Assembly (NCBI GenBank): GCA_963971305.1
Contig: OZ020303.1
Span: 34,088,106 to 34,152,105 of the forward strand
Direction: 5' to 3'
Source: Arcuatula senhousia
Taxonomy: Eukaryota; Mollusca; Bivalvia; Mytilida; Mytilidae
DNA length: 64,000 nucleotides
Every line of letters starts with the position of its first letter. Positions within the stretch are counted from its first letter, which is position 1. Positions 12,758 through 55,665 of the stretch are shown here, piece by piece. A program made the position numbers and the translations under genes. Under the pieces are notes generated by a model. The model ran no database searches. It was not told the origin of the DNA and saw only the letters and a list, made by a program, of their open reading frames with translations.

Positions 12758-14040
12758 ACTTATCTTGTGGTCCTCGTCTTCGGACGCTCATTCTCCCGTA
12801 AAATGTACATTAACGTCTGTCTTTGACTTCTGGGACCTGCAAGTGCGGCACTGTTTCCTTAGAATATCATTTTATTATATTTTTTGGAAAAAAATATTAT
12901 AGTTATAACATATTTTAGAGAAAAATTATTTGATTAGCCCAAGGTTAAGATAAAAAACCATTCGCCATATGTGGCATTTAATCCTTTTGTTATGTCCAAT
13001 GCACGCCGGTGCAATTTTAAAAATCTCTTAATAAATAAACATGGGTCCATCAGTTTTCAAACTTAGACATATTTTTGTAGACAGGTTCCACTTCCTGTTG
13101 AATCAATTTTTAGCACGTGATTTTGTTGGTTGCTTAGTAACGGGTATTCCGATGATGTCTCCTGAAAAAGCGTGTTACGTAACGGTTGCTAAAATTTTAT
13201 TGAAAATTTGACATGTGGCGTTAATACGCATGTGTACAAAATGATAGAACTGTGAAATGTAACATAATTGGCTGAAAATTTTTAAAATAATAACGTTTTT
13301 TGTTTTTTTTTTTACATTTAAATATGAGCGGACCTGCGACCCACAAATATATTTTCTGGAAACATTGGCTCTGGTATGACAAATTAACAGTTAAAATATT
13401 TTTTGTGGGTCGCTTGTCCGCTCATGGTTATTTTAGCCAAAAACATACAAAAATATACCTAATTTTGAGAAAAAGCCACTTTTTCATCAAGATTGATCAA
13501 ATTTTAAAATTAGATTTGATGTACTCTTTGTTTAAAACATTTAAATTTATAAACTTTCATCACTTAATATCAAATATATCAACATTTCACTTTTGAAAAT
13601 GGGACCAAAAAATAACCCTTATGATACCTTGTACCGTTGATTATTCATATAACGATCAAATTGATCGATTTCTAGAGAAGTTTATTACTTTAAAAGGGTA
13701 AACTAATAAAGCAAGTAAAAGTCAAACATACAGCATATCTTCCCAGCAGTACAAAATATTATGAACAGGTTTTTGAAATGTGGAAAAATATCAGTGATTT
13801 TAACGTTGACGTCAACGATGCGACGTCAAATTTAACAGGTTTGATTAAAGAATTGTTCATTGTTTGAAAACATATATCTCAGCTTTTATTTTAGCAGTGT
13901 TGCTCAAATTTGAAGGGAAACCTCCTAACATTCTAAACTTTCGTTAAACGAAAAATTGTCTAAAAAATCGAAAAATCAAAATTTTCATTTCTGACAAATG
14001 AAAATGTACATTTTACCGGAGAATTAGTGTTGAACAGATA
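12758..14040. other. No gene; contains a short inverted repeat at 13321-13430
   Basis: At 13324-13353 and 13394-13425 the sequence has inverted arms built on ATGAGCGGAC and GCGACCCACAAA separated by about 40 bp, a likely small hairpin MITE. The ORF at 13300-13596 runs through it and has no recognisable domain. The remainder is AT-rich without supported features. Confidence 0.5.
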
Positions 14041-14540
14041 CTGATCTTGTGGGAACAAGATACTATCTTATGGGAACGACATATTAAGGTGTTGGAAAGA
14101 GATACTATCTTGTTGGAACGACATATTAAGGTGTTGGAAAGAGATACTATCTTGTTGGAACGACATATTAAGGTGTTGGAAAGAGATACTATCTTGTTGG
14201 AACGACATATTAAGGTGTTGGAAAGAGATACTATCTTGTTGGAACGACATATTAAGGTGTTGGAAAGAGATACTATCTTGTGGGAACGACATATTAAGGT
14301 GTTGGAAAGAGATACTTATATCTTTTGGGAACGAGATACATATATGTTGTGGGGAAGAGATACATGTATTTATCTTTTGGGAACGAGATACGTATCTTGT
14401 GGGAACGAAATACTTATCTTATGGGAACGAGAGAATTATCTTGTGCGAACGATATATTTATCTTGTGGGAACGACATATTTCGGTGTGGGAACGACATAT
14501 TTTGTTGTGGGAACCACATATTAAGTTGTGGGAGTGACAT
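14041..14540 (+). repeat. 42-bp minisatellite built from a 21-bp unit
   Basis: The 42-bp unit contains 'gatactatcttgttggaacg' and 'acatattaaggtgttggaaa' and is almost identical through about five copies (roughly 14060-14300). It then decays into 21-bp units of the form 'gggaacgagatacttatctt' to about 14540. Because 42 and 21 are multiples of three, both strands stay open (plus strand 14-residue repeat DTILLERHIKVLER; minus strand MSFQQDSISFQHLN). I regard these ORFs as by-products of the repeat rather than genes. Confidence 0.85.
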
Positions 14541-15474: not shown

Positions 15475-16004
15475 AACAAGAGGCTCCCAAGAGCCTGAAT
15501 CGCTCACCTGGGCTTGATGTCCACCCTATAAAATTTTTTCTAGAGCTAATGAGCTGAACATTTCAGCAAGTAACAGCTTTTCTCCATCTACTATAGTTTC
15601 ATTCTGTAGCCATAGGCCCAAATCATGAAAAAATGTTATTCTAGGGGCCAAAACCCCTATAAGGGGTCATCTGACAACTTCGACCCTGTGAAAACTTTTG
15701 TAGCGCTAAATGAACTGAACATTTAAGCAAGCAACAGCTTTTCTTTATCAGCTATAGTTTTCATTTAAAAGGCCAAAAACATGAAAAAAATGTTATTTTA
15801 AGGGCCGTAACCCCTATATGGAGTCATCTGACAACTATCACCCTATGAAGACTTTTGTAGAGCTAAATAAACTCAACATTTAAGCAAGCAACAGCTATTC
15901 TCTATCTGCTATAGTTTTCATTCTATAGGCCAAAAACATGAAAAAACGTCATTTTAGGGGCCGTTACCCCTATAAGGGGTAATCTGACAAATTTGATCTT
16001 ATGG

Positions 16005-16508
16005 AGACGCAGGGAAATTTTGCTTTTGTACATTTATTTAAATCAATTCAATATGTGGATCGTGTCATTTTGGCACATGTTCCATATTCTTTCGTTTTTA
16101 ATATTATTTCAGAGTTTGGCTTTAGTGCCGTGTGGAGGTCGTAGAAAGCTTCCCCGTGCTTCAGTTGTATGCTCTTATATATTTTCGATTACTGGAATAT
16201 GTGTTGGAAAGACACAGTTTACATATTTCCAAAATTTGACAACGTTTGGCTGTTTCTTTAAAAATTGATAAATTTATCTGTTTGGTCATTGTTTTAATAT
16301 TTTTTGGCTTTTTTTTTTTTTTTTTTTTTTATCAAATGTAATATTCTACCGGTTTTCCAAGTTTTCTACTCCTAGCGTGTCTGATGAAGGTTAATCCAGA
16401 AAAGCGCTTCACACGCAGGGAAATTTTGCTTTTGTACATTTATTTAAATCAATTCAATATGTGGATCGTGTCTTTTTGGCACATGTTCCATATTCTTTCG
16501 TTTTTAAT
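16005..16508 (+). mobile_element. Retrozyme-like insertion: 1.25 units of a 406-nt repeat
   Basis: The segment starting ACGCAGGGAAATTTTGC at 16007 recurs at 16413 and stays identical for about 93 nt except one base (16061-16062 region, a versus t), so the repeat period is 406 nt. The insertion interrupts a family A core unit cleanly: the left flank is '...tatggag(ac)' and the right flank resumes 'tttgtagagc'. The unit start coincides within two bases with the cleavage position predicted for the hammerhead motif at 16371-16420. A sequence longer than one unit that begins at the cleavage site is what reverse transcription of a ribozyme-processed circular or multimeric RNA would give. A short poly-T tract lies at about 16311-16330. 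No coding capacity; the ORF at 15993-16268 is incidental. Confidence 0.65.
16371..16420 (+). ncRNA. Hammerhead ribozyme motif (type I), possibly weakened
   Basis: The core is CTGATGA (16381-16387) and GAAA (16399-16402). Stem I pairs GCGTGT (16375-16380) with ACACGC (16411-16416), six perfect pairs, then an A-A mismatch and three further pairs (CCT with GGG, including U-G). Stem III is the short palindrome AAGCGCTT (16402-16409), as in ribozymes of Penelope-like elements and animal retrozymes that act as dimers. Cleavage would follow C16410. The weak point is stem II: only GG/CC plus an A-A opposition next to the core where G-C is preferred, so activity may be reduced. Confidence 0.6.
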
Positions 16509-17432
16509 TTTGTAGAGCTAAATGAACTGAACATTTAAACAAGCAACAGCTTCTCTCTATCTGCTATAGTTTTCATTCCATAGGCCAAAAACATGAAAGA
16601 ACGTTATTTTAGGGGCCGAAACCCCTATAAGGTGACATCTGACAACTTCCATCCTATGGAATTTTTTTGTAGAGCTAAATAAGCTGATCATTTAAGCAAG
16701 CAACAGCGTCTCTCTATCTGCTATAGTTTTCATTCTATAGGCCAAAAACATGAAAGAACGTTATTTTAGGGACCGAAACCCCTATAAGGGGACATCTGAC
16801 AACTCCCACCCAATGGATTTTTTTGTAGAGCTAAATAAGCTGATCATTTAAGCAAGCAACAAATATGAAAAAAACGTTAAATTAGGGGCTGTAACCCCTT
16901 TAAGGGGTCATCTGACAACTTCGACCCTTTAAAGACTTTTGTAGGGCTAAATGAGCTGAACATTTAAGCAAGCAACAACTTTTCTCTATCTGTCATAGTT
17001 TTCATTCTATAAGCCAAAGACATGAAAAAATGCTATTTTTCACCTTTAAGGGGCCGTTACTCCTATAAGGGGTCATCTGACAACTTCGACTCATTAAAGA
17101 CTTTTGTAGAGCTTTTGATGCTGAAGCAGTAGCGTGGCATCATATTTCATCTATCTCTTATACTTTTTGATTTACAAGCCAAAAACAGGAGTCTGACCCC
17201 CCTGGTCTATTTTTAGTAACGGCGGCCATGTTGATTAGACAGCGGTCACCATTTGTGCAATCTTGGTAGAGGACATCCCATAGATGTAGTGTGCAAAGTT
17301 TCAAAGCAATCCCTTCAGTCGTTTCGGAGGAGAAGATTTTCAAAGAAAAGTTAACGACGACGACGGACGACGACGACGGATGCCAAGTGATGGCAATAGC
17401 TCACCTGGACCGAAAAGGTCCAGGTGAGCTAA

Positions 17433-18068: not shown

Positions 18069-19271
18069 GGTGAACATACAATACTCACTGACTGTCAACA
18101 TGGCTTCCGGGCAAGAAGAAGTTGCGAAACTCAGCTACTTACTTTAACCCACGAGTTGGCAAAATCCCTAGACAAAGGTATTCAAGAAGATCTCATCATC
18201 TTAGACTTCTCTAAAGCCTTTGATAAGGTTCCACATAAGTGACTTCTATCAAAACTGGATTTTTATGGAATTCGTGGCACAACACATGGCTGGATTAAAG
18301 CGTTTCTATCAGACAGAAAACAACAAGTCATCGTCGATGGGGCAACATCTGATAAAGCACCAGTTGTCAGCGGGGTTCCACAAGGAACTGTGCTCGGACC
18401 ATTACTCTTCCTCATTTCATTAATGATTTGCCAGAATGCGTAACATCTAGGACTCGACTTTTTGCCGATGATGCTATTGTATATAGAGAAATAAGATGTG
18501 ACAAGGATTGTGAGGATCTACAAGCTGACCTTATTGCCTTAGCAAAATGGGAAGAACTTTGGGGAATGTCATTCCACCCCGATAAGTGCAACGTCCTTAG
18601 AGTAACACGATCTAAGAAACCAAGGATATTCGACTACCAACTAAAAGGTCACACATTAGAAGCTGCAGAAACAACAAAGTACTTAGGAGTTGACCTAAGC
18701 CACAGCTTATCTTGGAACCACCACATAGACAGGGCAGTAAAGAAAGGAAACAGCATGCTGGGTTTCCTAAAAAGAAATCTAAGGATCAATAGCCAGGAAA
18801 CAAAGTCAGCAGCATTCTTCACACTTGTACGACCAAACTTAGAGTACTGTGCCTCTATCTGGAATCCCTACAGCCACCAATCAATACAGAAACTGGAAAT
18901 GGTACAACGACGAGCCGCCAGATATGCCACAAACAGACGGATACAGGAACACCAGCAGCGTAACTGACATGATAGAAAGCTAAGAGTGGGAGACACTAGA
19001 ATCACGAAGAACAAAGATTCAACTGACCATGTTTTTTAAGTTAGTACACGATCTTGTTGATATTCCATCATCAGACTACATCATACCATCATACAGTAGG
19101 ACAAGATCTAACCACTCCAAGAAGTACCAACAATACCATACCAGGTCAGATGCTTACAAGTACAGCTTCTTCCCTCGAACGATCCGCATCTGGAACCAAC
19201 TGCCAACTTCTATTGCTGAGACCCCCGACTTGGTATCTTTCAAGCGGGGGCTATCATCTGTTACTTTCTAG
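18069..19271 (+). pseudogene. 5'-truncated non-LTR retrotransposon, reverse transcriptase and C-terminal region
   Basis: Jockey/CR1-group reverse transcriptase. Recognisable blocks are QHGFRARRSCETQL, LDFSKAFDKVPHK (18180-18239), VSGVPQGTVLGPLLF (18369-18413), the active-site FADD (18461-18472), TTKYLGVDLSHSLSWNHHI, and the C-terminal block SFFPRTIRIWNQLP...SFKRGLSSVTF ending at TAG 19269-19271. It is dead: an in-frame TGA at 18240-18242 after the PHK block, a one-base loss near 18413-18416, a frameshift near 18940 and a TAA at 18981-18983. The endonuclease part is missing. The 3' UTR continues perhaps to about 19480; I see no clear tail repeat. Confidence 0.85.
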
Positions 19272-21825: not shown

Positions 21826-22010
21826 ATTATGGAACGCCATAGCTGCCTTATGATGATGTGTTTCATTATGTGATGATACTTCTTCATTATGTGATGATAC
21901 TTTGTCATTATGTGATGGTACTTTGTCATTATGTGATGGTACTTTGTCATTATGTGATGATACTTCTTCATTATGTGGTGATACTTTGTCATTATTTGAT
22001 GATACTTTTT
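21826..22010 (-). repeat. 21-bp minisatellite with a conserved preamble
   Basis: The unit 'cattatgtgatgatactt(t/c)' recurs every 21 bp about seven times (roughly 21865-22008). It is preceded by TTATGGAACGCCATAGCTGCCTTATG (21827-21853), which is nearly repeated before the array at 54760. Spurious ORFs exist on both strands because 21 is divisible by three. Confidence 0.75.
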
Positions 22011-22651
22011 TCGAATTCGAAATCTGTTTATTGTTTGCTTAAAAGGTTGAAATGGTCTGATAATAGTTTAGTTGATCGTTATACTAAATCTAATTTTTTG
22101 TAGAAAGAAGATAATCAAACATAAAATTGTTGTATGTAAATATAATGGTATGGACCTATTCTTAATGTGCCTGAAACAAAGTTATCTATTTATTCATCTA
22201 TTTATTTATTTTTCTATTTACTTATAAGATAAAGCAATATTTATTTTACAATTGCCAATGACGCCATCATTCTCTAAAACTATTCTGCAACGGTCTCTTC
22301 CCATTTATCCAACTTAACTCTGCAACATGTGAAACCCGACCGCAAATCGACCATGCAGTGAGCCGTGTTGATAAAAAGTTGTCCCTTTCCCTTCAACGAA
22401 CATTACGGCATCTCTCATGAGCGAGGGTAAGACCCGTATGATTCCCTGTTTGTGCTTATCTGTGAGATTCGCCTCATCCTTCCATTGCCACGTAGAAGGT
22501 AAAACACGTTTCTCCGACTGACTTTTTGTTCCCATTTCATTTTATTCCACTTCTATCATCATTTCAACCCTTTCATATCTTAAGAAAGGGTATGGAGTAA
22601 ATGAACATGAGACCACAACATATACATAAACTCTAACTGTAATTGATTTTT
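22011..22651. other. No gene recognised
   Basis: A minus-strand ORF at 22314-22535 is somewhat less AT-rich but shows no domain or splice context I can support. Confidence 0.35.
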
Positions 22652-22700
22652 ATGAGCTGTATGGCCATTTCGGAAATGTATTCCTCATCAGCAGCACTTG
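22652..22700 (-). ncRNA. Hammerhead ribozyme motif (type I), near-consensus core
   Basis: On the minus strand: CTGATGA (22691-22685), stem II GGAATACATTTCC (22684-22672) giving GGAA/TTCC with the conserved G-C next to the core, and GAAA (22671-22668). Stem III is the palindrome ATGGCCAT (22668-22661) and the cleavable base is A22660. Stem I pairs GCTG (22695-22692) with CAGC (22659-22656), followed by a U-U opposition and another G-C. Every conserved core position I can check is present. The short palindromic stem III is typical of Penelope-like-element and retrozyme ribozymes. No second copy of the surrounding sequence is in the window, so its host element is unknown. Confidence 0.7.
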
Positions 22701-24789
22701 AACCCAAACATATATAGAAAATTCACAATTTCAAAAGATGTTCAAAATGTATAAATCAAACGAAATCCAAATAAATATAGCCAAGGACAAATCAACGATG
22801 GAGGGAGTTAAACCTTAGGTTTTAGAATTTACATGAATTTAGATAATGGTTAAGAACAAAGTGTAAACAAGTACACCATATCTAAAAAATAAAAAGCATA
22901 CATCTTTATCACGGGGAATTGTTCTACTAACTCCACACGGCATTAAAGACCATCTCCTTCTTTTTCCTGATACAGTCCAATTTGTGATGCTAAATAATAA
23001 AAGCCATATAATTTTTAAATAACTAAATCAATTTAATGATGTTCAATCCTTTTGGTTTACTGTGAAAAAAATCAGTAGTCTCGAATTAATTTCGTGGTTT
23101 TCGCGTGTCAAAACCAAGGAATTTGGTTTCCGGCAAAAAAGAAATTATTTGTTGAAATGTATAATAGTTGAGTTGTCGAAACCACGAACTCTTGAATTCA
23201 TTTTATCCAATTTACGAAATGTTGATACCATCGAATTGAGTATACATTGTAAAGGTTTCACCAATTCATAACCCAGTTTGCTCCTTGCATCTTTATATAT
23301 ACAGTATATATATTTCTGGTTTTTGTACTATATTATGTTCTAAATTTTTACCCTAGGAGAGGAATGATCTAATCTATAAAAAGAACTAGATCCAAAAGTT
23401 TATACTTTTAAGCAATGTTCTAAACTAAAAATTTCTTATGTTTCTCCAATGTTCTAAATTCTCACCTATTAAAAAACCGGTAAAAATAGATTAGAACATG
23501 ATGTTGTATACAAAAAGATTTAAAATATTTAGGACAACACTGTATGCCCCAACGACTCCGGCTGGGAATTTAAAAGTTTACAGTTGATCAATTTTTCATG
23601 AATAATAAAAATACCACATTCATATTGATTTGTTTACATGTAGAATAGTTGGTTCATACAGTCGGTTCTGATGGCTTATTGAAAAAAAAGTCTGCTGCAA
23701 TATAATTTTGGAGGTAAAATACGCCGTCTGTCACAGTATCATTTTAAAGGTAAAATAACATTTCAGCATAAGATTATACTTTTAATATATACAGCAATGC
23801 TGTTAAATCTATTTATGAGAATGAATATTGATTTAAATATTATAGAATATCTTCGGGCGTGGTATATACTTGTTTTATTTTTTCAAAGTGAAAAAAAATC
23901 AAGATCATTCAACTTCAGCATAACACCCATGTAAAATGGTTAGAGATGTCAAGTCTACACATGCAGGTTGTGTTTTCATAAAGCATTAAGTTTACGAACT
24001 TGTAACTTTTGAGTTTTTTTTAACCTTTTACATTTTAATATAATATAATTATATTAATATAAAATGGCTCGGATCATTTTAATATTTTTGATGTGATTTT
24101 TCTCGTTATAATCAAAGCAAGTCAAGAACCTGCTATGCTTTCCATTTTCTTTTGCGTTTATTTTGCTATTGAAATTTCATTATATTCTTTTAAATTAAAA
24201 TCTGTGTTTTTAAGGTTAGTATTTTATGCAATGAGAACATGTAAACCCGTTTGACACAGGAAATCATTTTTCATAAGAATTTTGTCAAAAACAAATAATA
24301 AACCCTTTAAAAATCTGCGTAATGTCTTTTTGACTAGAATACAATACACGGAAATATTAAAAAAAAGTCCTATTCCATTATGGTCAACTTTTCAACCATG
24401 CAAAAAATATATGAGAATTCATTTAGGTATTGAGTTTTTCAAGCATTAAATCATTCTTTGAATTTAAATTGATATAACTTGGCTCTGACAGTTCCAGGGC
24501 GTGGGTGTTAAGCAAACTTTGAGTCACGTTGAGAACTCACAATTTCACATTGCACTCACTACACCCTTAAAAAACGTTAGGGCGTTGGAAATGGTTAATT
24601 GTGGGTTTTTAAATACCAGTTTTAATTTGAAGCTTAAAACGACAAGCCTATACCAGATATAAAGGTAATTACAAAATTATCGAACTTGAAGGATCAATCT
24701 CAAATGTCCATGAGTAAAACACACCGGAATAATTGAAGACCGAAATGGTCCTGACTTGGTACAGGCATTTCAAAAGAGACGGTGGATAA
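22701..24789. other. No gene; dispersed repeats
   Basis: About 23080-23200 has the 'cgtggttttcg'/'gaaaccacgaa' palindromic motif also seen near 6820. About 24661-24785 matches the repeat at 2713-2865. The rest is AT-rich and unassigned. Confidence 0.4.
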
Positions 24790-42532: not shown

Positions 42533-44340
42533 GCATAAAAGCATAAAGCATAAAAGTTTTATTTAAAGTCGATGGCATTAAAATACATAACATAAGCTCT
42601 GTAGAGCTTTTTATCGACTGACACAAATAAATAATAAACATGATCAACACACATAAAACAACACAATACATATCATGCAGACAAGACATATAAGCATTAC
42701 TAAATTAAAGCACACATAAAGCAAAGCACAAGCTAAAACTAGAGTTATAACTAAAAGCACAAATAGCAAAATTATTAAAAAGCACAAGCAAAGCATGAAT
42801 TAGTAAAAACACAAGCATTGCATAAATTAATGGGCTAAACTAAAGCAGAAATGACAGCACATACATGTATAGCACTAGCTAGATAATACATAAAAATACA
42901 TCCCAGGCTACACCCCCTCAGACCTACAGGATCCACATCTGCAAAAGCTACCGTTCCAGTTGCTTATTAAGCTTTTGAACTGGTTGAGGTTTGAAGCTGT
43001 TCTAAATTCATTAGGTAGCTCATTCCATAGTGTGGCCCCTGCATATCTGAAGGAGTGCAAACCATGGTTGGTTGTCCTTACCCTAGGAACTTCCACTGTA
43101 TTTTCCTTTCTGAAAGAATATTTACTATCTTTAAAAACAAACATATCTTGTAAGTACAGTGGACCTTGTTTATTTAAAATTTTAAAAACTTCTATTGCCA
43201 TTGCTCTGATTCTTCTAATTTTTAAAGATGGTAAACCTGATTTACATAATAGTTGTTCATATGAGCTGTTATAGTCGTCATAAACAAATCTGAGCGCTCT
43301 TTCCTGAATTTTTTCTATTTTTCTAGTGTTGTTCTCTCCACAAAAATGCCATACAATAGGACAATAGTTAAAATTGCACATGATGAATGAAAAATATATA
43401 GTGAGTTTTCCAAGTTTCGACAGGTGTTTACCAATACGTTTTAGTACATTAAGTTGGCGAGATGCCTTTTTACATATATTTGATACATGGTTGTTAAACT
43501 TAAGCTGACTGTCAATAGTCACCCCCAGAAGTTTGACTTCGTTATCACATTTTATAACATTTCCTTTTAGATTAAAGCCAATGTTTTGTTTAGATGTTTT
43601 AGACCCAATAGCAAGAGCTTGAAATTTATCTGGGTTTGCTTTCATGTGGTTATGGGAAAACCAATTTATTAAATTTATACTTTCTGATTCCAAAACTCCC
43701 ACAACCTTGTTTAAGTCAGTATCTGAGTATGACAGCGTATTGTCGTCAGCATAGTTATACAGGTCACTATCTTTGATAAAATGAAAAATATCGTTTAAAA
43801 ATATATTAAACAGCACAGGCCTTAAAATTGAACCTTGCGGCACACCTTTGTACAGATCTTTCCAAGTACTAATATTAACTCCCACCTTTACACATTGTCT
43901 TCTATTTGTTAAATAACTACACAAAAGATTTAATGCTGATTCTGAAAGCCCATATGCTTTTAGTTTTAATAATAATAGGTCATGCGGGAGGCAATCAAAT
44001 GCCTTCGAAAGGTCCATCAGAACTGCAGCAACATATTTGTTGCTATCAACTGCAGATTTCCAGTCTTCTATGATTTTTAGAAGAGCGGTATTACATCCAA
44101 AACCCGGTCTAAAAGCCGAAAGGTACGGGTGAAATATATTTTCGAAAAAATCTAATAGTTGTTCATAGATGGCCCTCTCAAAGAATTTTGAAACCACCGG
44201 CAAGATACTCACTGGTCTGTAGTTACCCACCTCCAATTGACTGTTCTTTTTGTGGGGGGGGGGACTACTTGTGCCTCTTTTAACTTATTTGGAAATGAGG
44301 CTTGTTCAAATGATTTATTTATTAACGGAAGTGTACAGTT
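42533..44340 (-). pseudogene. 5'-truncated non-LTR retrotransposon with open reverse transcriptase
   Basis: Reading leftwards, the frame is open from near 44340 to the stop at 42908, with no break over about 470 codons. Blocks seen: NYRPVSILPVVSKFFERAIY, LMDLSKAFDCLPHDLLLLKL, GVPQGSILRPVLFNIF, the active-site YADD (43742-43753), and LLGVTIDSQLKFNNH. The clade is jockey/CR1-group. The upstream endonuclease is missing. The 3' UTR ends in short TTTATGC-type repeats (42533-42556 on the plus strand), as CR1-like elements do with their tail repeats. It sits inside the left TIR of the 42520-49221 element, whose right TIR shows the uninterrupted site. The first base pairs at 44324-44340 may belong to that TIR. 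Confidence 0.85.
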
Positions 44341-54753: not shown

Positions 54754-55665
54754 CTATGGAACGCCAGGACTGCCTTATGTTGGTAACCATCATTATACTC
54801 AGGCGTAACGCCATTATGCTCAGTCGTTACAACTTTATACTCAGTCTTTACAACTTTATATTCAGTCCTTACTACATTATATTCAGTCGTTACCACATTA
54901 TACTCAGTGGTTAGAATATTATATTCAGTCGTAATAACATTATGTTCAGTCGTTATAACATTATGTTCAGTCGTGTCAACATTATACTCAGTCGTGTTAA
55001 CATTATGTTAAGTCGTTTCAACATTATACTCAGTCCTTAAAACTTTATACTCTTTCATTACATTATTATATTCAGTCATTACAGCATCATACTATGCAGT
55101 TTTAACATTATAATCAGTCCTTTCTTTAGTTTACTCTGTTGTTTAATATTATACACTGTCGTTACAGCATTATATTCAGTAGTTATCACATTATACTCAG
55201 GCGTTACACCATTATACTCGGGCCTTACAACTTTATACTCTGTCGTTTTATCATTTTACGCTGTTGAGACAACATTATACTATGTCGTTACCACATTATA
55301 GTCAGGTGTTACAACATTATGCACCGTGGTGACAACATTATACTATGTGGTTACAACTTTATACTCAGTCGTTGGATCATTATACGCTGTCTATTCAACA
55401 TTATAATCTGGGGTTACAACATTATAATCTGGGATTACAACATTATACTCTGTGGTTGCATAATTAAACGCTGTCTTTTCATTATTATACTCTGTGATTA
55501 CACCATTATACTATGCTGTCACAACATTATACTAAGTTTGTGCAACATTATACTCAGTACTTACAACATTATACTATGTGATTACAACTTTATACTATGT
55601 GGGTACATCATTATACTATGTGGTTACAACATTATACGCTGTCGTTACAACATTAGGTGCTCTTT
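54754..55665 (-). repeat. 21-bp minisatellite, long and diverged, with a conserved preamble
   Basis: Roughly 40 diverged units of the form 'acattatactcagtcgttac' spaced 21 bp. Preceded by CTATGGAACGCCAGGACTGC and CTTATG (54754-54779), almost the same as before the array at 21865. The array is older or faster-evolving than the 14041 array. ORFs are by-products. Confidence 0.8.

Follow-up and report, generated by a model that had tools for sequence, protein, structure and literature searches.

The copies of a hammerhead-bearing retrozyme in the bivalve Arcuatula senhousia have a preferred 3' end that resembles the start sites of Penelope-like elements

A stretch of 64,000 nucleotides of the Arcuatula senhousia genome (contig OZ020303.1, positions 34,088,106 to 34,152,105; hereafter the window) contains an insertion that is a copy of a metazoan-type (non-LTR) retrozyme family, and the invariant boundary of the retrozyme is its 3' end, not the hammerhead cut. 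This fixed end resembles the start sites of Penelope-like elements, which suggests that these larger elements copy the retrozyme. The kind of element is already known, and Penelope helpers have previously been proposed for it from co-occurrence; what is new here, as far as literature listings show, is the description of the insertion ends together with the start-site match. In the open literature, we found no title or abstract that reports the insertion ends of animal retrozymes or links these elements to internal Penelope initiation.

Background

Animal retrozymes, their RNA circles and their co-residence with Penelope elements are described in the available text of PMC7229834 (Cervera and de la Pena 2020), where helpers are proposed, and the available text of PMC7761336 proposes the copying of circles into multimers. 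The machinery that mobilises animal retrozymes, with circles as its template, is left as a proposal in these portions of both papers. The metazoan retrozymes are characterised by a type I hammerhead, dispersed tandem repeats in the range of about 150-450 nt, a GC content below 50% and the lack of a coding frame, all of which are found here, whereas target site duplications (TSDs) of more than 4 bp, a non-obligatory feature, were not detected over 32 junction pairs. By description, the retrozymes of Mytilus galloprovincialis (PMC7229834, available text) share with the present ones the type I hammerhead, a tandem arrangement (units of 350-390 bp there), a low GC content, the lack of a coding frame, thousands of copies and co-resident Penelope-like elements. 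The available text of that paper does not describe where retrozyme insertions end and puts the TSDs, where they occur, at more than 4 bp; the present copies lack a TSD, and their 3' end is fixed and falls at a Penelope-like start site. Acropora and Ambystoma are further hosts for which both retrozymes and Penelope-like elements have been described. The LTR retrozymes of plants (in part from PMC7761336, available text) are likewise non-autonomous and hammerhead-bearing, and a circular RNA intermediate has been published for plants; they differ in having a type III hammerhead, LTRs, a PBS, a PPT and a 4-bp TSD, where the present elements have a type I hammerhead and no TSD.

Results

Anatomy of the insertion

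The insertion and its parts, in window coordinates, are as follows.

16007..16508, plus strand: the entire retrozyme insertion, comprising 1.2-1.3 units; each end is placed to within 1-3 nt, owing to letters common to the target
16007..16412, plus strand: complete 406-nt unit, GC 0.32
16413..16508, plus strand: partial second copy, about 96 nt, which stops at the family's fixed 3' end
16375..16416, plus strand: type I hammerhead by a rule-based descriptor, cut after C16410
16309..16330, plus strand: T22 run, where the units vary most (the longest T run ranges from 5 to 29 across 63 units)
16112..16189, plus strand: 78-nt conserved block, 78% alike in a second family
16049..16234, plus strand: long predicted RNA hairpin, -57.3 kcal/mol, z -5.3
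16095..16108, plus strand: putative reverse-transcription start site, TTTTTAATA followed by TTATT; the fixed 3' end of the genomic copies falls at about 16103

A preliminary description of this DNA had called the insertion retrozyme-like, with a 406-nt unit, about 95-98 nt of a second copy, and a unit start within two bases of the cut of a hammerhead at 16371-16420 (cleaved after 16410). These points stand. Positions 16007-16105 and 16413-16511 are identical at 97 of 99 positions when aligned within the window, the final bases of this alignment being target letters, so that the true 3' join of the insertion lies at about 16508; the unit starts 2 nt from the cut; and the hammerhead, redrawn by a few bases, keeps the same cut. 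The type I hammerhead, the tandem units and the thousands of copies described below bear out the class assignment. The 406-nt unit has no coding frame, since the only frame of at least 90 aa to overlap the insertion measures 108 aa from stop to stop and has its beginning in the flank, and no reverse transcriptase or GIY-YIG frame of its own is present in the unit.

The hammerhead reads GCGTGT-CTGATGA-...-GAA-AAGCGCTT-C, then the cut, then ACACGC. Its stem I is formed by GCGTGT and ACACGC, the core is CTGATGA, the short stem II has an A-A mismatch at its base, and stem III is the 8-nt palindrome AAGCGCTT (2 bp plus a tetraloop). From this mismatch and the weak stem III, monomers would be expected to cleave slowly. 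Scanned with rules for its three stems (I, II and III), the 64-kb window yielded two sites, both within retrozyme-type elements, and 150 dinucleotide shuffles yielded not a single one. The Rfam models recognised no hammerhead, either at the gathering score across the window or at E up to 5 in 15900-16700 and 22500-23000; the call therefore draws on the descriptor, on the conservation of the motif and on the different stem letters of a second family. In the 1.04 Gb genome, we counted 2789 exact matches to the 42-nt hammerhead and none to its reversed control. The motif, A-A mismatch included, is kept in most of the 63 full units of the first 21 arrays read, and in the pieces carrying the 41 arrays that we read, the exact 42-mer is present 96 times and the structural rules recover 123 sites.

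The long hairpin is a folding prediction, for which none of 200 shuffles was equally stable; the end or start site and the conserved block would lie towards its apex. The 20-nt core of the block occurs 2535 times in the genome, and its reversed control is absent. A match of the block in a collection of viral contigs (viral_contigs, L009) lies in a phage-like coding stretch; it is the sole such match and was taken as chance. The search of a phage collection returned nothing but 30-nt chance matches.

A second family and further relatives

The window contains a second hammerhead-bearing element, on the other strand.

22576..22960, minus strand: copy from a second and diverged retrozyme family, about one unit long and truncated at its 5' end; it ends at about 22580
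22656..22695, minus strand: hammerhead of the second family, stem III palindrome ATGGCCAT, cut after 22660

The letters of this hammerhead differ in all three stems from those of the first family, which supports the structure itself. The conserved block, aligned between 16112-16189 and 22956-22880 (78% over 78 nt), is the only segment that local alignment of the two families finds. For the fold of the second family, a matching closing stem can form; it is not part of the predicted minimum, and when forced it is less stable than the minimum. The second-family copy of the window and the last unit of L030 stop at the identical family base, 80 nt past the family's own hammerhead cut (L030), and since the genome query for this family stops about 4 nt beyond that base, it gives only weak evidence for a fixed end there. 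A third type of hammerhead was seen within a first-family array, in a 78-nt insert on the minus strand at about 2386-2463 of the oriented piece L069, with stem II GTCT..AGAC followed by GAAACGCGCGTC.

Copies in the genome

We read 41 arrays, i.e. 20 from a first genome search, 20 first-family arrays along contig C1 (L060-L079) and the window copy; the first set excludes the large C12 array, C6:31017887 and C11:32624057. A search for the unit, as the preliminary description had proposed, recovers tandem copies with a near-constant period: the full units are 384-413 nt long (63 units in the first 21 arrays). The arrays comprise about 1 to 14 units, with 11-14 units in L024, L064 and L026. Both sampling routes need about one unit of sequence, and short copies are consequently under-represented; isolated hammerhead matches on C1 in the 42-mer list suggest that there are many.

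Full units of one array differ by 0.68% on average (163 pairs), as against 3.9% between arrays (1790 pairs), and L010 and L016 each hold three units without a substitution, their unit lengths differing by 3 nt. In the short arrays (up to 2.3 units, 22 with an overlap), 104 of 5560 overlap positions differ, or 1.9%, in a count that omits the T run, the junction and two further arrays without overlap; L071, L073, L029 and L062 are high in differences. This divergence is above that of the 0.68% arrays and below the between-array level. The similarity within arrays would agree with a single circular template for each event and subsequent ageing; similar units could likewise come from homogenised source arrays or from local duplication at a later time.

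Several arrays have a structure of their own. The unit lengths of L024 follow a period of four (397, 412, 406, 406; then 397, 411, 406, 407), a higher-order repeat; at C12:23568401-23616401, units extend across about 48 kb in a satellite-like manner; and L071 carries, at 440-556 of the oriented piece, a 117-nt insertion that runs from within the hammerhead to near the fixed end.

The 3' end is fixed

With unit position 1 set at the first base after the hammerhead cut, 38 of the 41 arrays have the end of their last piece at unit 92-107, within 16 nt and about 99 nt past the cut, and the terminus mostly reads ...CTTTCGTTTTTAAT(A). The exceptions are L015 (166), L023 (260) and L028 (75). All 20 arrays of L060-L079 obey the fixed end, as do 21 of 22 consecutive C1 arrays (1.08 to 18.5 Mb) when L015 and L017 are included. 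Where other DNA splits an array (L061, L069, L079), its 3' end was read from the far piece, and the counts are exclusive of isolated fragments (L060 22-201, L022 155-195, L026 77-180, L071 375-95, which obeys, and the first piece in L075). The two BLAST tables used below were made with queries rotated to the fixed end; pieces trailing past it were noted individually, apart from any tally over all arrays of the tables, at C10:1578213, C7:18111572, C731:629 and C1:23613010 in one table and at C6:23254420 in the other. An apparent 3' end at unit 59-62 among the BLAST ends was rejected as an alignment artefact, the true end being at about 99. L015, C7:18111572 and C731:629 end at unit about 150-166 instead of 99, perhaps at a second, rare start site, comparable to the two sites 86-94 nt apart in the Penelope-like elements.

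The 5' ends are scattered

The 5' ends (105 in total) were taken from 40 read arrays, with L023 omitted as it runs off its piece, and from the two BLAST tables, which contributed 29 and 36 ends that may be off by a few bases. In the set of 29, which is from the table with four trailing pieces, four duplicates were counted once, and L078 itself and one entry inside an array (query 247) were dropped; from the set of 36, we removed L074 itself, one piece internal to the C15 array and every array that lacks a partial first unit. The ends spread over the whole unit. Six of the 105 fall within -4 to +3 of the cut, against 2.1 expected (P 0.02), and five of 104 when the window copy is excluded (P 0.06); per set, the numbers are 3 of 40 for the read arrays (P 0.047), 3 of 29 (P 0.02) and 0 of 36. 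The window copy starts at unit 3, and L073 and L076 at unit 1. A cut-site enrichment in the first two sets (70 ends, P 0.003) was mostly gone after the third set. Denser clusters are found at unit 48-58 and 156-165, the former of which loses most of its weight if five loci with a common end (query 349) count once. The 48-58 cluster lies near the foot of the predicted long hairpin.

The coincidence of boundary and cut in the window is thus mostly one draw from a scattered distribution. The preliminary description had held that the boundary was set by hammerhead cleavage and that the coincidence was unlikely by chance; with 5' ends scattered, six of 105 near the cut and the invariant end elsewhere, the copies do not bear out cleavage as the general determinant of the boundary.

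The target

The insertion interrupts another repeat.

15522..17187, no strand given: interrupted target, tandem core repeats of 157-165 nt of another element

Adjacent target units read TATGAAGACTTTTGTAG, TATGGAAAATTTTGTAG and similar, and the insertion separates TATGGAG from TTTGTAG without duplication. The target had earlier been described as a unit of another element and as lacking a clear duplication, and both statements are upheld, the first by the tandem repeats in the flanks and the second at the window and over 32 junction pairs, where the longest word shared by the flanks averages 4.0 against 3.99 for re-paired flanks (P 0.49; nine arrays were left out of this test, and five of the 32 pairs have a misplaced 3' join). 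Elsewhere in the window, frames resembling LINE reverse transcriptases were seen by eye at 42908-44284 (minus strand) and 18356-19271 (plus strand), and minisatellites with a 21-nt period lie at 14032-14533, 21863-22008 and 54791-55655.

Resident Penelope-like elements

A GIY-YIG search of the genome gave at least 140 matches over the cut-off among the 150 of 1106 candidates that were scored, and 17 matches lie in frames of at least 900 aa, several of them in tandem at 3.1-3.2 kb or head to head. The stretches between two tandem frames were read for three elements, L080, L081 and L082. The assignment of L080 and L081 as probable Penelope-like elements rests on the C-terminal GIY-YIG, the frame length and the tandem or head-to-head arrangement; Pfam found nothing over the cut-off in N-terminal pieces of the Penelope-like frames.

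L080 has a hammerhead-like motif with a minimal stem III and a cut placed by eye after L080:294, L081 has a variant of this motif with one core change and a presumed cut after 295, and no such motif was seen in the junction piece of L082. Genomic rows of L080 end at query 252-266 (24 of 45), 162-179 (16), the query's end (4) and 113 (1), so that the preferred ends are about 166 and 72 nt past the presumed cut. For L081, the ends are at 292-297 (7 of 43), 377-385 (16), the query's end (4), 696 (5, about 70% identity) and elsewhere (11), the preferred ends being about 56 and 142 nt past the cut; 16 of the 43 rows, the five at 696 included, end at neither a preferred site nor the query's end. The common anatomy of L080 and L081 is a hammerhead-like motif followed by two preferred 3' ends 56-166 nt downstream.

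The start-site match concerns 14 nt of AT-rich DNA. At the two L081 ends, to within one base, 12 and 11 of these 14 letters agree with the retrozyme end. These two windows are the best between hammerhead and frame, and over the whole L081 piece one more scores 11. In L080, the best 14-nt window is 18 nt away from an end, and the runner-up is 2 nt away from one. When the comparison is reversed over 396 unit positions, the retrozyme end alone reaches its sum against the two L081 ends; against L080, position 313 scores the same as unit positions 97 and 98; and when all four ends of L080 and L081 are taken together, the retrozyme 3' end is the single best of the 396 positions. The second family is best at offset +1 from its own end against all four ends; against L081 alone a position 114 nt away ties, and against L080 alone neighbouring offsets score higher and others tie. 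Between the retrozyme and the three Penelope-like pieces, we found no longer shared sequence but only short chance-level matches, the start-site ones among them, and the conserved block was not found in these pieces.

The available text of PMC11167929 reports that a purified Penelope enzyme of Anolis starts internally, 111-118 nt into the ORF, which by subtraction from the figures of that paper is 85-92 nt after the hammerhead cut at 26. According to the same text, the enzyme requires RNA beyond the start point and favours AT-rich ATT targets, and the genomic ends of Anolis Penelope fall on two start sites. The retrozyme and the resident Penelope-like elements have a similar anatomy, which this known mechanism would explain.

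Discussion

Taken as a whole, the most satisfactory explanation, and one that we consider probable, is that a Penelope-type reverse transcriptase starts internally on circular retrozyme RNA, runs round it and stops variably. The genomic copies supply the fixed 3' end, the scattered 5' ends, the within-array similarity, the anatomy and the start-site resemblance, read here from DNA; the circle, the enzyme, its binding and its priming are what we infer. In this scheme, the units would be transcribed, the hammerhead would cut the RNA to unit length, and the ends would be joined into a circle, as the published biology of the class implies. The reverse transcriptase of a resident Penelope-like element would then bind the long hairpin with its conserved block and be primed at AT-rich target DNA, and copying would begin at the internal site TTTTTAATA followed by TTATTT, about 99 nt downstream of the cut, which resembles the Penelope-like start sites. 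Circling the template once to many times before a variable stop, the enzyme would leave tandem arrays of near-identical units that agree in their 3' end and vary in their 5' ends. In support of the scheme, a cut linear monomer primed at 99 would give no more than about 98 nt, whereas 38 of the 41 arrays are longer than one unit (the remaining three are interrupted, and both sampling routes favour copies of about a unit or more). Against it stand the lack of any longer sequence shared with the Penelope-like pieces, the ties in the start-site comparison and the L081 rows that end elsewhere; nor does the scheme account for the insertion step, at which no target duplication is seen.

The same enzyme and start site could also have acted on a linear multimeric read-through transcript of a homogenised array. 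The source arrays can indeed be near-identical internally, and the Anolis enzyme, according to the available text of PMC11167929, worked in vitro on unprocessed RNA, with no need for cleavage by the hammerhead; we nevertheless regard this template as rather unlikely, as the arrays of 11-14 units (L024, L064, L026) would need very long uncut transcripts despite a hammerhead in most units. Mobilisation by a LINE, in the manner of a SINE, would account for 5' truncation and a fixed 3' end, and the window does contain the frames resembling LINE reverse transcriptases that were noted by eye, but the lack of target duplications, the absence of poly-A at the 3' junctions examined, the position of the 3' end inside the repeat unit and its resemblance to the ends of L080 and L081 make this quite improbable.

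Still less credence can be given to the earlier reading, in which copies begin at the cut because self-cleaved RNA is copied to its end: the starts of the window copy, L073 and L076 and the low P values of the first two sets of 5' ends speak for it, whereas the third set has no end near the cut, the overall excess fades when the window is excluded, stronger clusters lie near unit 48-58 and 156-165, and the invariant end is the other one. Satellite turnover, by extrachromosomal DNA circles or unequal exchange and with the hammerhead as a passenger, finds an argument in the matches over about 48 kb on C12; random breakage would scatter both ends, yet the 3' end falls within 16 nt in 38 of 41 arrays, and we think this extremely improbable.

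The proposed copying of a circle by a Penelope-type enzyme has a close known parallel in PAc of Anolis (PMC11167929, available text), where a hammerhead cut is likewise followed by a start at a short set distance, RNA is needed beyond the start, genomic ends lie at the start, and copies are found in tandem; the retrozyme unit, unlike PAc, encodes no protein and has one main end, not two. The retrozyme would accordingly work like a Penelope-like element, with a hammerhead and then a fixed internal start as in L080 and L081, without being a member of that group. We lean, by a little, towards a broader reading in which animal retrozymes are SINE-like parasites of Penelope-like elements, circles equipped with a Penelope start site and a recognition hairpin, whose tandem arrays arise in one event and whose hammerhead makes an endless template, not an insertion boundary. 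With thousands of copies that favour one end, located at a Penelope-like start site, the helper proposal becomes open to a direct bench test, and the genomic signature of a fixed end could be sought in mussels, corals and salamanders.
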